This document shows positions 34,249 through 41,533 of a stretch of DNA of 46,290 nucleotides, piece by piece (positions within the stretch are counted from its first letter, which is position 1; each line of letters opens with the position of its first letter). A program made the translations under genes and the position numbers. This stretch comes from Methanothrix sp. (GTDB lineage: Archaea; Halobacteriota; Methanosarcinia; Methanotrichales; Methanotrichaceae): NCBI GenBank assembly GCA_025361645.1, contig JANYKI010000089.1:1-46290 (forward strand), given 5' to 3'. The notes below the pieces were generated by a model that was not told where the DNA came from, ran no database searches, and saw only the letters and a list, made by a program, of their open reading frames with translations.

Positions 34249-35748
34249 CTAGCAATTGCCTCCAGGGCACCCGCTAGATCCGCCACTTTCCTCTGGATTG
34301 TCACTGCCGCCTTCCTCTGAACCTCCTGGGCTTTCATCAGAGGCATCGGCGGATTTATCTGTCTCTTCGACAGTGATTCTCTGGTAGGCCTCTACGGAAT
34401 TTCCACAGGTGTCTGTAGCCTCGAATACCCTCGTTTTGACGAAAAGACCTTCAAAATAGTTATAATCCAGGTCCATTTTAAAGGTAACAGTCACCGGCCC
34501 TCCACAATTGTCTACAGCATGCACAGTGGTTATATCGGGCATTGGGACATCTGATTTGCTTGCAAAATTCTGGTTGTCAACCCCAAGGATCTGCGGCGGC
34601 ATATCATCAATAACGGTAATGGTTTGGACGCATTTCGCCAGGTTACCGCATGCATCAGTGGCCTCGTAAGTTCTGGTAATAATCATAGGATCGTCAGGGC
34701 ATCCCGTGCCTTCATCAGGGGTGTCGAAAAAAGTGATTTCCACTGGTCCGTCGCAGTTATCGGTGGCGGTCACCGAGTTGATATCGGCGGCCGGCACCTC
34801 AAATTGGCATTGTACCTGGATGTCATCAGGACAGGTGATCTCCGGCGGCGTGTCATCAATAACGGTAATAGTTTGGACGCATTTCGCCAGGTTACCGCAT
34901 GCATCAGTGGCCTCGTAAGTTCTGGTAATAATCATAGGATCGTTAGGGCATCCCGTGCCTCCATTATCGGTATCGACAAAAGTGATTGTCACTGGTCCGT
35001 CGCAGTTATCAGTGGCGGTCACCGAGTTGATATCGGCGTTTGGCACCTCAAATGGGCATTGTACCTGGATGTCAGCGGGACAGGTGATCTGCGGCGGCGT
35101 ATTATCAATAACATCAATTAGTTGTATGCAATCAGCCGAGTTACCGCAGGCGTCAGTGGCTGTGTAAGTCCTGCTAATTTTAAGCGGGTTGTCTGGGCAT
35201 CCCGTGCCTCCATTATCGGTATCGACAAAAGTGATTGTCACTGGTTCGTCGCAGTTATCAGTGGCGGTCACCGAGTTGATATCGGCGTTTGGCACCTCAA
35301 ATGGGCATTGTACCTGGATGTTGGCGGGACAGGTGATCTGTGGCGGCGTATCATCAGTGCAGTTACACACGGCGGGTTTATTTATATTCAATGCCATCCA
35401 AGCTTGGGCTTCATCCCAGGTCACTTTTCCAGGGAATACGTTAAACATTAATTCGCCCGTGGGCTCTTTGGCTACTGTGCATTGAGATCGATCTCCCGTA
35501 CAGTAAACGTTCCACACGGCGGGTTTATTTATATTCGATGCCATCCAAGCTTGGGCCTCATCCCAGGTCACTAATCCAAATACTTTAAACATAAATTCGC
35601 CCGTGGGCTCTTTGGCTACTGTGCATTGAGATCGATCTCCCGTACAGTAAACGTTCCACACTGCATTTTCATTTCCACCTTGTCCCAAAGCTGGCACGGC
35701 GAGCAGCATGGTCAGCAATAAACCGCTGATAATTATCTTTATCTTCAT
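34249..35748 (-). CDS. Secreted HYR-like repeat protein
   Basis: The 499-residue product has a signal peptide (KIKIIISGLLLTMLLAVPALG). Then come two tandem repeats of about 48 residues (each starting VWNVYCTGDRSQCTVAKEPT and containing VTWDEAQAWMA), and next at least three highly similar HYR-like domains of 83 residues (TCPADIQVQCPFEVP, SVTATDNCDGPVTITFVDT, RTYEATDACGN) plus a more divergent fourth. A Ser/Gly/Glu tail with cysteines ends the protein. HYR domains are Ig-like adhesion modules, so a cell-surface role is likely. The ATG at 35748 has GGAGAG 7 bases upstream. The near-identical DNA repeats imply recent duplication. Confidence 0.85.
   Translation of the reverse strand: MKIKIIISGLLLTMLLAVPALGQGGNENAVWNVYCTGDRSQCTVAKEPTGEFMFKVFGLVTWDEAQAWMASNINKPAVWNVYCTGDRSQCTVAKEPTGELMFNVFPGKVTWDEAQAWMALNINKPAVCNCTDDTPPQITCPANIQVQCPFEVPNADINSVTATDNCDEPVTITFVDTDNGGTGCPDNPLKISRTYTATDACGNSADCIQLIDVIDNTPPQITCPADIQVQCPFEVPNADINSVTATDNCDGPVTITFVDTDNGGTGCPNDPMIITRTYEATDACGNLAKCVQTITVIDDTPPEITCPDDIQVQCQFEVPAADINSVTATDNCDGPVEITFFDTPDEGTGCPDDPMIITRTYEATDACGNLAKCVQTITVIDDMPPQILGVDNQNFASKSDVPMPDITTVHAVDNCGGPVTVTFKMDLDYNYFEGLFVKTRVFEATDTCGNSVEAYQRITVEETDKSADASDESPGGSEEGGSDNPEESGGSSGCPGGNC
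34605..35353 (-). repeat. Three tandem 249-base repeats encoding HYR domains
   Basis: Unit boundaries at about 34604, 34853, 35102 and 35351 are exactly 249 bases (83 codons) apart. Units 1 and 2 share long identical stretches, including the segment around TCGCCAGGTTACCGCATGCA. Confidence 0.85.
35368..35656 (-). repeat. Two tandem repeats of about 145 bases
   Basis: Units 35368-35513 and 35514-35656 encode the two N-terminal repeats of the HYR protein and are nearly identical. One unit is three bases longer. Confidence 0.8.
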
Positions 35749-36046
35749 GATGTTCTCTCCAGATCTCACCTTGGTTTTCTCTATAATTGTACACGGTACA
35801 TGGTATAAATTTCCGTCGTGTGTATTCGCCGACTCTATTTTGACCCTCCCCAAGAAGGGAAGCCTCTCCTCTCGCATTCAGCCGTCCATTTAGTGCGTGC
35901 AAAATGTAGTCTACCATGCCAGGTAGTATGCCACCTATGAGCCTCATGCCCAATGAGGTGTGGGAGTTAGTACCGGTAGTAAAATAGATAGCATCAAGCC
36001 AATGCTTCATTAGGTCCATGCCAGGCCATCTCGGAAAGGGATCTGA
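35749..36046. other. Intergenic region upstream of the HYR gene
   Basis: About 300 bases with no supported gene. A minus-strand frame from 36019 runs into the HYR gene in another frame and is not recognised. It could be decayed coding DNA but has no family pattern. Confidence 0.4.
35803..35811 (-). promoter_or_regulatory. Probable TATA box of the HYR gene
   Basis: On the minus strand ATTTATACC lies about 58 bases before the ATG at 35748, giving a leader of about 30 bases that contains the GGAGAG ribosome site. Two copies of the motif GGTA(C/T) lie next to it. Confidence 0.4.
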
Positions 36047-38190: not shown

Positions 38191-38302
38191 ATCAATTGAA
38201 ATACCGCCGGCCAAAGTCCGCTTGTGTGCCGATCAACGCAAGTTTAGTTAAATTAAGTCCACTGGCGTTGGTTTCATATAGGTGCAGACCAGGGTTAGAA
38301 TT

Positions 38303-39343
38303 ATGCCAAACTGGATCTACCCCGATTTCGAGCCGCGCCCCCAGCGGCCTTTATTTCTCTGCATCATCTCCAACACCGATACCGGCAAGATTCCCGGCCT
38401 ATCCGCTGCAGGAACCACGCCGGAGCTGACCGACTATACCCCCGGCGCCGATGCCGAGCTGGTGGAGACCAACCGCATCATCACCATGCCCGAGCTACCG
38501 GAAGCGCCGGGCGGCTCGCCCACTCCCGCCATCGTCACCAAGGCCGCTCTGAACCTGACCGGCATACCTTCCTTATTCGTGGCCTCGGGCCTTCGTAAGA
38601 AACCGGCCATTCCCTACGTGGAGCTGGGCGGATCTGCGGGCAGCGACATTCGCAAAGAGCCTGCCGTGCCTGGGGCCCATGACATCTTTGAAAATGCCGC
38701 AATGCTTGGAAAGAAGCTCGCAAAACTCTCCGACTGCGTCTTCATTGGCGAGTCCATCGCCGGAGGCACGACCACGGCTATGGCCGTTCTCTGGGCTCTG
38801 GGCTATGATGTCAATGTGAGCAGCAGCTTCCGGTCCAATCCCACTGCCCTCAAGCAAAACGTGGTGGCCAGCGCATTTCAGCGGGCCGGCATCAAAATTG
38901 GCAGCCTGAAGAGCGAGCCCCTGCGGGCGGTCGAACAGGTGGGCGACCCCATGATGGCCGCGGCTCTGGGCCTCATGCAGGGCCTGCAGGGCTGCAAAGT
39001 CGTGCTGGCGGGTGGCACGCAAATGGCCGCCGTGCTGGCCCTGGGAAAAGCCCTGAAAATCGAGGGCGATATCTCCATTGCTACCACCAAATATATCGTG
39101 GAAGACAAAACGGCCAACTTTAAGGAGATCGTAGAATCGACCGGCCGGCCTTACTACTACTCCGACCCGGGACTGGAGAACTCCAAGATCCCGGGCGTGC
39201 AGATCTACGCAAAAGGTTATGTCAAAGAGGGCGTGGGCATGGGCGGTGCCAGCCTTCTGGCCGGGCTTTACGGCGTTACGCAAAAGCAGCTCGTCGAGGA
39301 GACCGACCGGGTGCTCATGACCGTGGAGCTGCCCAAGAAATGA
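38303..39343 (+). CDS. cobT: Archaeal CobT-family phosphoribosyltransferase
   Basis: The 346-residue product matches the archaeal CobT branch (TIGR00303/UPF0284 type), which transfers ribose phosphate from nicotinate mononucleotide to the lower base of cobamides. Recognisable are AGTTPELTDYTPGADAELVE, GGSPTPAIVTKAALNLTG, IGESIAGGTTTAMAVLWALG and AGGTQMAAVLALGKAL. Methanogens need cobamides for methyl transfer. The ATG at 38303 is chosen over GTG 38282. It overlaps the next gene by 4 bases. Confidence 0.9.
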   Translation: MPNWIYPDFEPRPQRPLFLCIISNTDTGKIPGLSAAGTTPELTDYTPGADAELVETNRIITMPELPEAPGGSPTPAIVTKAALNLTGIPSLFVASGLRKKPAIPYVELGGSAGSDIRKEPAVPGAHDIFENAAMLGKKLAKLSDCVFIGESIAGGTTTAMAVLWALGYDVNVSSSFRSNPTALKQNVVASAFQRAGIKIGSLKSEPLRAVEQVGDPMMAAALGLMQGLQGCKVVLAGGTQMAAVLALGKALKIEGDISIATTKYIVEDKTANFKEIVESTGRPYYYSDPGLENSKIPGVQIYAKGYVKEGVGMGGASLLAGLYGVTQKQLVEETDRVLMTVELPKK

Positions 39344-40374
39344 AAGCTGCGATTCTAAAGGCTCCGGGAGTTCTGGAGCTGGACGATATCCCCGATCCGC
39401 TGTGCCCCAAAGGCGGTGCCCTGCTAGAGATCAAAGCCTGCGCCGTCTGCGGCACGGATGTCAAGATGCGAGCGCAGGGCCACCGGGACCTGGCTTATCC
39501 TCGCGTGCTGGGGCATGAGATGGTAGGCAGGATCGTGGAGATCGATTCAGACATAGCCTTGGCCGAAGGCGACCTGGCACAGGTTTGGCCGGGCCTGGCC
39601 TGCGGAAAATGCCGGTCGTGCCTGCGGGGAGCCGACAATCGTTGCCCAAGCATCAAGATCATGGGATTCAACTGCGACGGAGGCTTTGCACAGCTCTTAG
39701 CTCTGCCCGAGCAGAGCCTTTCCGGCGGCGTTAACCTGCTGCCCCAGGGAGCCGAACCGGTTCTCGCCGCTCTGGCGGAGCCTCTGGCTTGCTGCATTAA
39801 CGGCCAGGAACAGGCCCGCGTCGGCAGAGGCGATCGTGTTCTCATCTACGGCGGCGGGCCCATCGGCGCTCTGCATGCTCTTTTAGCTGAGCTTCACGGA
39901 GCCGAGAAGATAATAGTAGCGGAGAGATTGCATGGCCGCATCCGCCTGCTGGAAAGGCACACAAACGCTGTGGTTATCGATCCGGCGGAAGAGTCTGGGA
40001 AAAACGTCCTAGCCGAGGAGATCGGCAAAGCAGGCTTGGACGTCATCCTCACCGCCACTCCAGAAGTGCGGGTGGACAATGATCTTCAGAAGCTTCTCTC
40101 ACCCGGAGGAAGGATTTGTATCTTCTCCGGGCCGGCTCCTGAAAACGATCAAGAGAGAATCGACCAACGCTCCATTCACTATCATGAGCTGACCATCAGC
40201 GGAGCCTACGGCTGCTCCAGCCGGCAAAATCGGCAGGCTGTAGAGCTTTTGACCAGAGGTATGATCAAGGCCGACTGGCTCATCACCAAAAGGACGGATC
40301 TTGACAAAATTGAGGAGGCATTTAGCCATTCATCCCAAAGAACCGGGATGAAATCGGTTGTTTGCGGGAATTAA
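39340..40374 (+). CDS. Zinc-dependent medium-chain dehydrogenase
   Basis: The 344-residue product is an MDR alcohol/polyol dehydrogenase: catalytic zinc ligands in KACAVCGTDVK and the GHE motif (VLGHEMVGRIVE), four structural-zinc cysteines in CGKCRSCLRGADNRC, and the Rossmann loop IYGGGPIGALHALLAE. It resembles sorbitol/threonine dehydrogenases and would oxidise or reduce a hydroxyl or keto group with NAD(P). The substrate is unknown. Translational coupling to cobT suggests a link to cobamide or phosphoribosyl metabolism, though this is inference. Confidence 0.9.
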   Translation: MKAAILKAPGVLELDDIPDPLCPKGGALLEIKACAVCGTDVKMRAQGHRDLAYPRVLGHEMVGRIVEIDSDIALAEGDLAQVWPGLACGKCRSCLRGADNRCPSIKIMGFNCDGGFAQLLALPEQSLSGGVNLLPQGAEPVLAALAEPLACCINGQEQARVGRGDRVLIYGGGPIGALHALLAELHGAEKIIVAERLHGRIRLLERHTNAVVIDPAEESGKNVLAEEIGKAGLDVILTATPEVRVDNDLQKLLSPGGRICIFSGPAPENDQERIDQRSIHYHELTISGAYGCSSRQNRQAVELLTRGMIKADWLITKRTDLDKIEEAFSHSSQRTGMKSVVCGN

Positions 40375-40420
40375 GAAACGCTTAGCTAAGAGCCATTTTA
40401 GCAATGTGGAGAACGGGATA

Positions 40421-41533
40421 ATGGAAGATAGTTTGAGATATTTTGGTAGCCATGTGGACGCACTGATTAGGGGCAGCAACCTGACGAGAGTTGAGGCGTC
40501 CTTTCTTTTCAAGCAGATTTTGAACAACGAGCAGCCCGATTTGCAGCAGGGCGCATTTCTGGCCGCCATTACCGCCAAGGGCGCTACGGCCCAGGAGATC
40601 GCCGGCATCTGGGAAGCCATCTACGAGATCGACACCGTGCAGGTTCATCCCGATGTAAACGGCCCATTGGTGGAGAATTGCGGCACGGGCATGGACGGCA
40701 TCAAGACCTTCAACATCAGTACCGCCGCCTCGCTGGTGGCTGCCGCCGACGGCATAACCATGGCCAAACATGGAGCGCGGGCCATAACCTCAAAATGCGG
40801 AGCCGTTGACATTTTGGAGACGCTGGGGGTCGATGTGGAGTGCGATGCAAATCTGGTGAAAAGAAGCATTGAGCGTGCCGGCATAGGCATCTTCAACGGC
40901 ATGAGCGCCAAAATTCACCCTTCTGCCCTTTACAGGATTTTATCTCAGATCAGATTCGGCACAGTTCTCAATGTGGCCGGGTCTCTGGCCAACCCCGCCA
41001 ATCCGGCTTACGCCGTGCGGGGCGTCTACTCCGGAAAAATGGTGCTGCCAATCGCAGAGGCCATGAAAGAGATAGGCTTTAGGCGAGCCTTTGTGGTGCA
41101 TGGCAGGAGCCGGGACGATATGCGAGGCATGGATGAACTCTCCACTTTGGGCCGATCTTATGTCGCGGAGCTGACCGAGGACGGAACCATCCGAGAGTAT
41201 GCCATAAGTTCGCAGGACCTGGGGCTAAAAGAGGCAGATGAATCATCCCTACTTTACCAGAGCAACAAAGAGACAGAAGCCATAAAGCTGCTGCGGGTCC
41301 TGTCCGGGGAGGAAAGGGGCTGCCGGAGAGATATCGTATGCCTGAATGCCGCGCCCATACTTTGCATCACCGATCGTGCCCGCGACCTCCAGGAGGGCAT
41401 GGAAAAGGCCGCCGATATCATCGATAGCGGCAAGCCCATAAAAAAGCTCAAAGCCTGGGTGGCAGAGCAAAACCTTGACGCGGCCCCTCGTCTGGAAAAA
41501 TTGGAGGAAATGCTGGCCAGGGCTTGCTCTTGA
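40421..41533 (+). CDS. TrpD-like phosphoribosyltransferase of unknown substrate
   Basis: The 370-residue product has the anthranilate phosphoribosyltransferase/nucleoside phosphorylase II fold. Motifs are ENCGTGMDGIKTFNISTAAS (the PRPP site; usual GTGGDG here GTGMDG), AKHGARAITSKCGAVDILET (usual KHGNR here KHGAR) and GTVLNVAGSLANPANP (usual R-x-x-G-x-x-T-x-x-N-x-x-x-P). It is a phosphoribosyltransferase but not necessarily TrpD: no trp gene is near, and key positions differ. It sits 46 bases after the dehydrogenase and near cobT. GGAG upstream supports the ATG at 40421. Confidence 0.78.
   Translation: MEDSLRYFGSHVDALIRGSNLTRVEASFLFKQILNNEQPDLQQGAFLAAITAKGATAQEIAGIWEAIYEIDTVQVHPDVNGPLVENCGTGMDGIKTFNISTAASLVAAADGITMAKHGARAITSKCGAVDILETLGVDVECDANLVKRSIERAGIGIFNGMSAKIHPSALYRILSQIRFGTVLNVAGSLANPANPAYAVRGVYSGKMVLPIAEAMKEIGFRRAFVVHGRSRDDMRGMDELSTLGRSYVAELTEDGTIREYAISSQDLGLKEADESSLLYQSNKETEAIKLLRVLSGEERGCRRDIVCLNAAPILCITDRARDLQEGMEKAADIIDSGKPIKKLKAWVAEQNLDAAPRLEKLEEMLARACS

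Follow-up and report, generated by a model that had tools for sequence, protein, structure and literature searches.

The cobT–ADH–T2 gene cluster

The window analysed here is the whole 46,290-nucleotide stretch of contig JANYKI010000089.1, which belongs to a Methanothrix-type archaeal genome (2.43 Mb, 97% complete). On its plus strand three genes lie together: cobT (38303..39343), for an archaeal nicotinate-mononucleotide-dependent lower-ligand phosphoribosyltransferase; a zinc-dependent medium-chain dehydrogenase gene (ADH, 39340..40374), the start of which overlaps the cobT stop by 4 bases; and T2 (40421..41533), for a TrpD-like phosphoribosyltransferase of the type that uses phosphoribosyl pyrophosphate (PRPP), with an altered acceptor site. 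We are confident that T2 serves assembly of the lower nucleotide loop of cobamides (vitamin B12-type cofactors). That T2 and ADH, its near-constant partner, form a dedicated two-enzyme accessory of this assembly, making or tailoring the lower ligand, is our preferred reading, with a chance that we put at about even. An earlier note on this DNA had grouped the same three genes, pointed to the altered TrpD motifs GTGMDG and KHGAR and to the lack of a tryptophan gene nearby, and suggested that the products might activate an unusual lower base. The grouping and both motifs hold, and no trp gene was seen among the named neighbours between 30 and 46 kb of the window, the remainder of which was viewed only as open reading frames (ORFs).

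The three family assignments rest on profile matches; elsewhere, gene names in the ORF lists were assigned by eye unless a family match is given. CobT scores 312 bits against TIGR00303 (cut-off 240) and was aligned to the solved archaeal homologues 3u4g and MjCobT (3l0z). Asp52, named as the general base of MjCobT in the passages of PMC9561151 that deal with it, aligns to an Asp of the window protein (residue 57, counted on the ORF from 38282). That ORF runs from a GTG at 38282 to 39343, and the ATG at 38303 agrees with the start chosen in the earlier note. ADH carries the ADH_N and ADH_zinc_N domains with zinc-ligand residues, and T2 is a Glycos_transf_3 protein whose ORF (40358..41533) opens upstream of the ATG at 40421, near which most homologues start.

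T2 forms a clade apart from TrpD

T2 scores 283 bits against the TrpD model TIGR01245, above its cut-off of 199, and is 40% identical to the canonical TrpD of its own genome. The model fails to separate the two proteins, and annotation pipelines are therefore likely to name T2 trpD. A tree built from 44 T2 and 22 TrpD proteins separates the two groups by a branch with support of 100/100. The T2 genes of L068 and L219 contain an internal stop. The earlier note had made the absence of a canonical trpD from the rest of the genome part of what would refute its reading; such a trpD is in fact present, on another contig (G000:C28), with trpF and trpE after it.

Column-by-column alignment of 26 T2 and 21 TrpD rows locates the differences in the acceptor site; 20 of the TrpD proteins came from loci L096–L101 and L103–L133 (33–42% identity), which were taken as canonical TrpD and not individually checked. 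Where TrpD has GTGGD, T2 has GTGMD, with Met in 26/26 T2 rows and the second Gly in 21/21 TrpD rows. The helix-8 arginine that holds the carboxylate of anthranilate (R193 in M. tuberculosis, R164 in Sulfolobus and R159 in Thermococcus, in the relevant passages of PMC9835598 and PMC5537072) is Arg in every one of the 21 TrpD rows and Leu in all 26 T2 rows. The asparagine of KHGN, another anthranilate contact in TrpD according to the same passages, is replaced by Ala or Ser throughout the T2 set (26/26). T2 does share the NIST and DE motifs of TrpD (EC 2.4.2.18), the DE metal motif (D238 E239) being invariant in 26/26 rows, and it keeps most of the PRPP-binding residues. An AlphaFold model (predicted local distance difference test score, pLDDT, 92) has the TrpD fold, and its 50 best Foldseek matches, TrpD structures among them, have template modelling scores to target of 0.87–0.93. 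As the fold, the metal motif and most PRPP residues are kept while the anthranilate-holding residues are lost, PRPP is very probably still the donor that T2 uses, with an acceptor other than anthranilate. The suspicion in the earlier note that this TrpD-like enzyme does not use anthranilate thus finds support, short of proof, in the loss of both contacts. The TrpD-like YbiB family also shares a TrpD-related fold, but T2 reaches only 36 bits against the NCBIfam YbiB model (cut-off 185).

ADH is the near-constant partner of T2

ADH adjoins T2 in 28/29 of the best Methanotrichaceae loci, the exception having T2 at a contig end. Outside the family it does so in 51 of 54 loci from archaea and bacteria, a set that excludes the Methanothrix loci L060, L062, L071 and L092 and the repeats L222 and L225; the grouping is therefore not a matter of chance. 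In the three loci without ADH (L074, L095 and L218), T2 lies 162 bases or less from a contig end, and the readable side shows no ADH. T2 of L218 (6333–7448) is the deepest branch among the T2 proteins and stands beside a 737-residue ORF, by eye a molybdopterin oxidoreductase, with the contig ending just upstream. A second copy of T2 in one Methanothrix genome (L043, G070:C1:757000–775500, and L071) had no ADH detected alongside; this stretch contains masked bases, and genes resembling the FecCD-type transporter genes of L061 are nearby.

Cys37, Glu60, the four structural-type cysteines Cys88, Cys91, Cys94 and Cys102, Glu147, His280 and Tyr281 of ADH are invariant in 35/35 aligned members, and Lys42 and Arg49 (34/35 each), Arg55 (33/35) and His59 (32/35) are nearly so. 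At ADH positions 42, 49, 55, 280 and 281 the sole other dehydrogenase compared reads H, K, L, L and W. The window ADH falls below the cut-off of every NCBIfam model that it matched, including those for L-threonine 3-dehydrogenase (147 bits, cut-off 380) and scyllo-inosose 3-dehydrogenase (IolM; 163 bits, cut-off 450).

Cobalamin riboswitches, CobT neighbours and ADH–CobT fusions

In 34 of 39 bacterial loci the cobalamin riboswitch RF00174 was found at gathering score within about 300 bases upstream of the ADH–T2 pair or of T2. Of the five lacking it, L061 and L072 sit amid B12 genes, L074 and L088 are truncated at the end of the locus, and the fifth is L212. Only two further matches came from these searches, both in L069. 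RF00174 was not matched in the archaeal window, which had no Rfam match at all, or in archaeal L057, L059 and L066.

CobT is the recurrent third member. In 18 of the 29 best Methanotrichaceae loci cobT adjoins ADH, and 24 of the 54 loci outside the family have a same-strand CobT within 4 kb. The check suggested in the earlier note, on conservation of the cluster with cobamide genes, favours such a link. The partner is archaeal-type in Methanothrix and bacterial-type (PF02277) in bacteria and in other archaea, such as L220 and, by similarity, L221 and L228; the grouping has therefore been made with two distant types of CobT. In several Desulfobacterota (by title) ADH and CobT form one protein of about 700 residues, with Pfam matches obtained for four of these and the rest recognized from open frames or similarity. 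No PF02277 match other than the fusion was found in G455, G501 and G560, and in G525, G597, G663 and G707 the only such match adjoins T2. Locus L213 has the order riboswitch-ADH-T2-CobT-CobS-CobD-CbiB, with CobA, CobU and CobQ nearby, and by similarity L215 has the same gene order. In L211 (1415–12500) a riboswitch-ADH-T2-CobT-CobS unit directly follows what by eye is a trp cluster with a trpD of its own, which falls in the TrpD clade, apart from T2. CobT is a separate enzyme family to which T2 is not homologous. Thirty aligned CobT rows, 20 of them T2 partners, all retain RLGEG(T/S)G, the motif that we take to hold the general base E317.

Across genomes, CobT is present in 33/33 near-complete Methanotrichaceae and in 11/11 T2-bearing genomes among 70 from the phylum of G452. 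The 16 other T2 genomes gave a strong PF02277 match in 13, a weak one in two (Methanomassiliicoccus by title) and none in one, the metagenome-assembled genome (MAG) of L073.

Two further proteins accompany some of these loci. In many bacterial operons the gene after T2 encodes a small protein, about 70 residues long, that carries a KASV(F/Y) motif (for example L063:9139–9348, L081:9028–9303 and L094:9073–9303); the two tested had no Pfam match, and a profile built for it had no match in the window or in Methanothrix loci. At L222:3689–4639 lies a divergent ribbon-helix-helix protein, some 300 residues long, that weakly matches AIR (aminoimidazole ribotide) synthase, as tested in L222 only. Judged by eye or similarity, it is likewise found beside the genes in archaeal L064, L067, L223, L226 and L227, and in loci of this type it is possibly a local regulator.

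Distribution of T2

The window T2 is 94–95% identical to that of a Methanothrix MAG. T2 is present in 36/50 Methanotrichaceae genomes, partial genes included, and in none of 149 other genomes of the class, where the best matches have about 41% identity or less. In the phylum of the window genome, 21/294 genomes match T2 at E ≤ 1e-70, and in that of Desulfopila aestuarii 13/395 match at E ≤ 1e-95. By name the matches include Methanomassiliicoccus, Methanophagales, Methanolliviera, Ca. Formimonas warabiya, Acetobacterium fimetarium, Desulfopila, Desulfoprunum and Desulfobacula. This scattered distribution suggests horizontal spread. It is a lower bound, since the scan relied on two peptide patterns and, of at least 587 relatives, retained 80. 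Some loci come from metagenome bins that may be misnamed (L061, for one, is titled Aquificota).

Discussion

The riboswitches, the CobT neighbours, the operons and the ADH–CobT fusions together make a role of T2 in cobamide lower-loop assembly very likely. The earlier note had proposed activation of an unusual lower base. Its cobamide lower-ligand part is borne out by neighbourhoods in two domains of life as well as by the riboswitches and fusions; activation as such is not, as that step is known to be the work of CobT, which occurs throughout the near-complete family genomes and in nearly all other T2 genomes examined. We suggest instead that T2 and ADH supply or tailor the base or ribotide that CobT uses, a proposal that may prove right or wrong with similar ease. 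T2 would transfer the 5-phosphoribosyl group from PRPP to a small aromatic nucleophile that lacks the carboxylate of anthranilate, and the NAD-type zinc ADH would oxidize the T2 ribotide or its product, with Lys42, Arg49 and Arg55 perhaps fitting a phosphorylated substrate. The resulting base or ribotide would pass to CobT for conversion to the alpha-ribotide, which CobS would join to the corrin, and the lower ligand would be made or tailored without oxygen and without ThiC-type chemistry. The order of these steps is more tentative than the involvement of the two enzymes.

Several observations weigh against this reading. Thirty of the 54 loci outside Methanotrichaceae, some on short contigs, lack a same-strand CobT within 4 kb, 10 of the 29 loci within the family have ADH but no cobT in the fetched flank, and for six of these (L035, L037, L039, L040, L045 and L046) none appeared in the longer stretches checked either. 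In the phylum of G452 the association of CobT with T2 is not significant (CobT in 11/11 genomes with T2 versus 44/59 without; p = 0.10), and among close relatives of the window genome all six genomes of genus g2 have CobT with T2 found in none, which means that T2 is dispensable for CobT. Counts of the ThiC-type family PF01964, compared in 50 Methanotrichaceae genomes, the 16 other T2 genomes and the 70 genomes of the G452 phylum, do not vary inversely with T2: two matches occur in 2/11 T2-bearing and 9/44 T2-lacking CobT-bearing genomes (Fisher p = 1.0), a clear inverse pattern is absent among the 50 Methanotrichaceae, and Acetobacterium fimetarium has T2 together with three PF01964 genes, two of them in tandem before CobT. 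Nor does nicotinate salvage (PF04095) vary with T2 in Methanotrichaceae.

Replacement of ThiC-type base synthesis by the T2 module was considered and set aside, as T2 and a second ThiC are not inversely related and such a replacement is thus not demonstrated. Five archaeal ThiC-like proteins were tested; all exceed the cut-off of the ThiC model NF009895 and three that of TIGR00190, and all five fall below the BzaB cut-off. By score and start, up to three kinds of ThiC-like protein occur in a Methanotrichaceae genome (e.g. G000:C115 and G000:C103).

Other explanations would leave T2 or ADH with different tasks. One is that T2 provides CobT with its phosphoribosyl donor, made or regenerated from PRPP and nicotinate, nicotinamide or another pyridine, CobT using the beta-ribotide with inversion, the released pyridine being recycled and ADH acting as a helper. 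This would account for the association with CobT in both domains whatever the base, and the usual nicotinate salvage does seem to be missing, PF04095 (nicotinate phosphoribosyltransferase) not being found in 49/50 Methanotrichaceae genomes or in 10 of the 16 other T2 genomes, where five of the six matches are weak. Methanotrichaceae that have no T2 lack it to the same extent, however, so that there is no complementary pattern; T2 has lost the Arg that would hold a carboxylate, and the conserved ADH is left unexplained. The precedent of BluB–CobT2, in which the fused partner makes the base, also leads us to favour base formation or tailoring, and we regard donor supply as rather unlikely. An inverting PRPP enzyme such as TrpD yields the beta anomer. 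T2 might then form a beta-ribotide of the base from PRPP and ADH convert it to the alpha form through transient oxidation of the ribose, bypassing nicotinate mononucleotide. A beta product would indeed require a second enzyme, and the conserved basic residues of ADH may fit a phosphate-bearing substrate, but the proposal sits badly with CobT in 11/11 and (as a strong match) 13/16 T2 genomes, with its intact catalytic motif in the T2 partners and with lineages that fuse ADH to CobT, where CobT can hardly be bypassed. We consider it improbable, and outright replacement of CobT by the module was rejected on the same genome counts.

The remaining two alternatives detach one of the enzymes from the lower base. 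ADH could make the aminopropanol linker in the manner of a threonine dehydrogenase, with T2 acting separately in the same operon, since L-threonine 3-dehydrogenase is among its nearest curated models. Its score is far under that cut-off, the L213 operon already contains the threonine-phosphate decarboxylase CobD, and the fusion partner of ADH is CobT, a base enzyme; we give this idea little credence. T2 could also be a redundant or specialized anthranilate phosphoribosyltransferase of tryptophan synthesis, as its score above the trpD cut-off would imply. This we find very hard to believe, given the canonical trpD with trpF and trpE in its own genome, the separate TrpD-clade trpD in the apparent trp cluster next to T2 in L211, the loss of both anthranilate contacts and the cobalamin type of the riboswitches.

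The proposed role in base formation or tailoring has partial parallels in two known systems. The BluB–CobT2 fusion of Propionibacterium freudenreichii makes and activates the lower base (PMC4657239), and offers a precedent for the ADH–CobT proteins in that its base-forming enzyme is fused to CobT and the base channelled. BluB needs oxygen and flavin, whereas here an unrelated zinc ADH is fused, T2 lies alongside and the hosts are, as far as known, anaerobes. The ThiC-like BzaA/B/F enzymes of benzimidazole synthesis also supply a lower ligand anaerobically, but this is the chemistry of ThiC relatives on AIR, and T2 and ADH come from other families. Perhaps T2 and ADH represent a third route after BluB and Bza, oxygen-free and ThiC-independent, with PRPP as a building block and spread between domains. 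We put this forward as a possibility that is somewhat less likely than its converse; if true, the cobamides of these organisms may carry an undescribed base.

A TrpD-like gene tied to cobamide synthesis was not found in a literature search of titles and abstracts, with most subscription papers and all bioRxiv preprints outside its coverage. The one paper found to contain trpD, cobT and a cobalamin riboswitch together, PMC8620254, has trpD only in an unrelated gene list. In our view T2 is a functionally new branch of a known enzyme family, and the module varies cobamide nucleotide-loop assembly in a new way; should it turn out to make a base, the pathway itself would be new. In a 2018 survey the lower ligand was predictable for no more than 58% of the predicted cobamide producers (PMC6461909). 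Which cobamides an organism can use is affected by the lower ligand, which thereby shapes exchange in anaerobic communities, and T2–ADH offers a marker module in acetoclastic methanogens, ANME-1-type archaea, acetogens and sulfate reducers. Genes annotated trpD can also belong to B12 synthesis. The riboswitches and CobT fusions point to the place of the module in the pathway, and with two small enzymes the question is testable.

Neighbouring genes in the window

Downstream (3') of T2 lie genes for an AI-2E family transporter, a MiaB-like tRNA methylthiotransferase and an acetate-CoA ligase. On the minus strand, 34249–35877 encodes a protein that by eye looks secreted and in which an HYR-like domain with four cysteines recurs.

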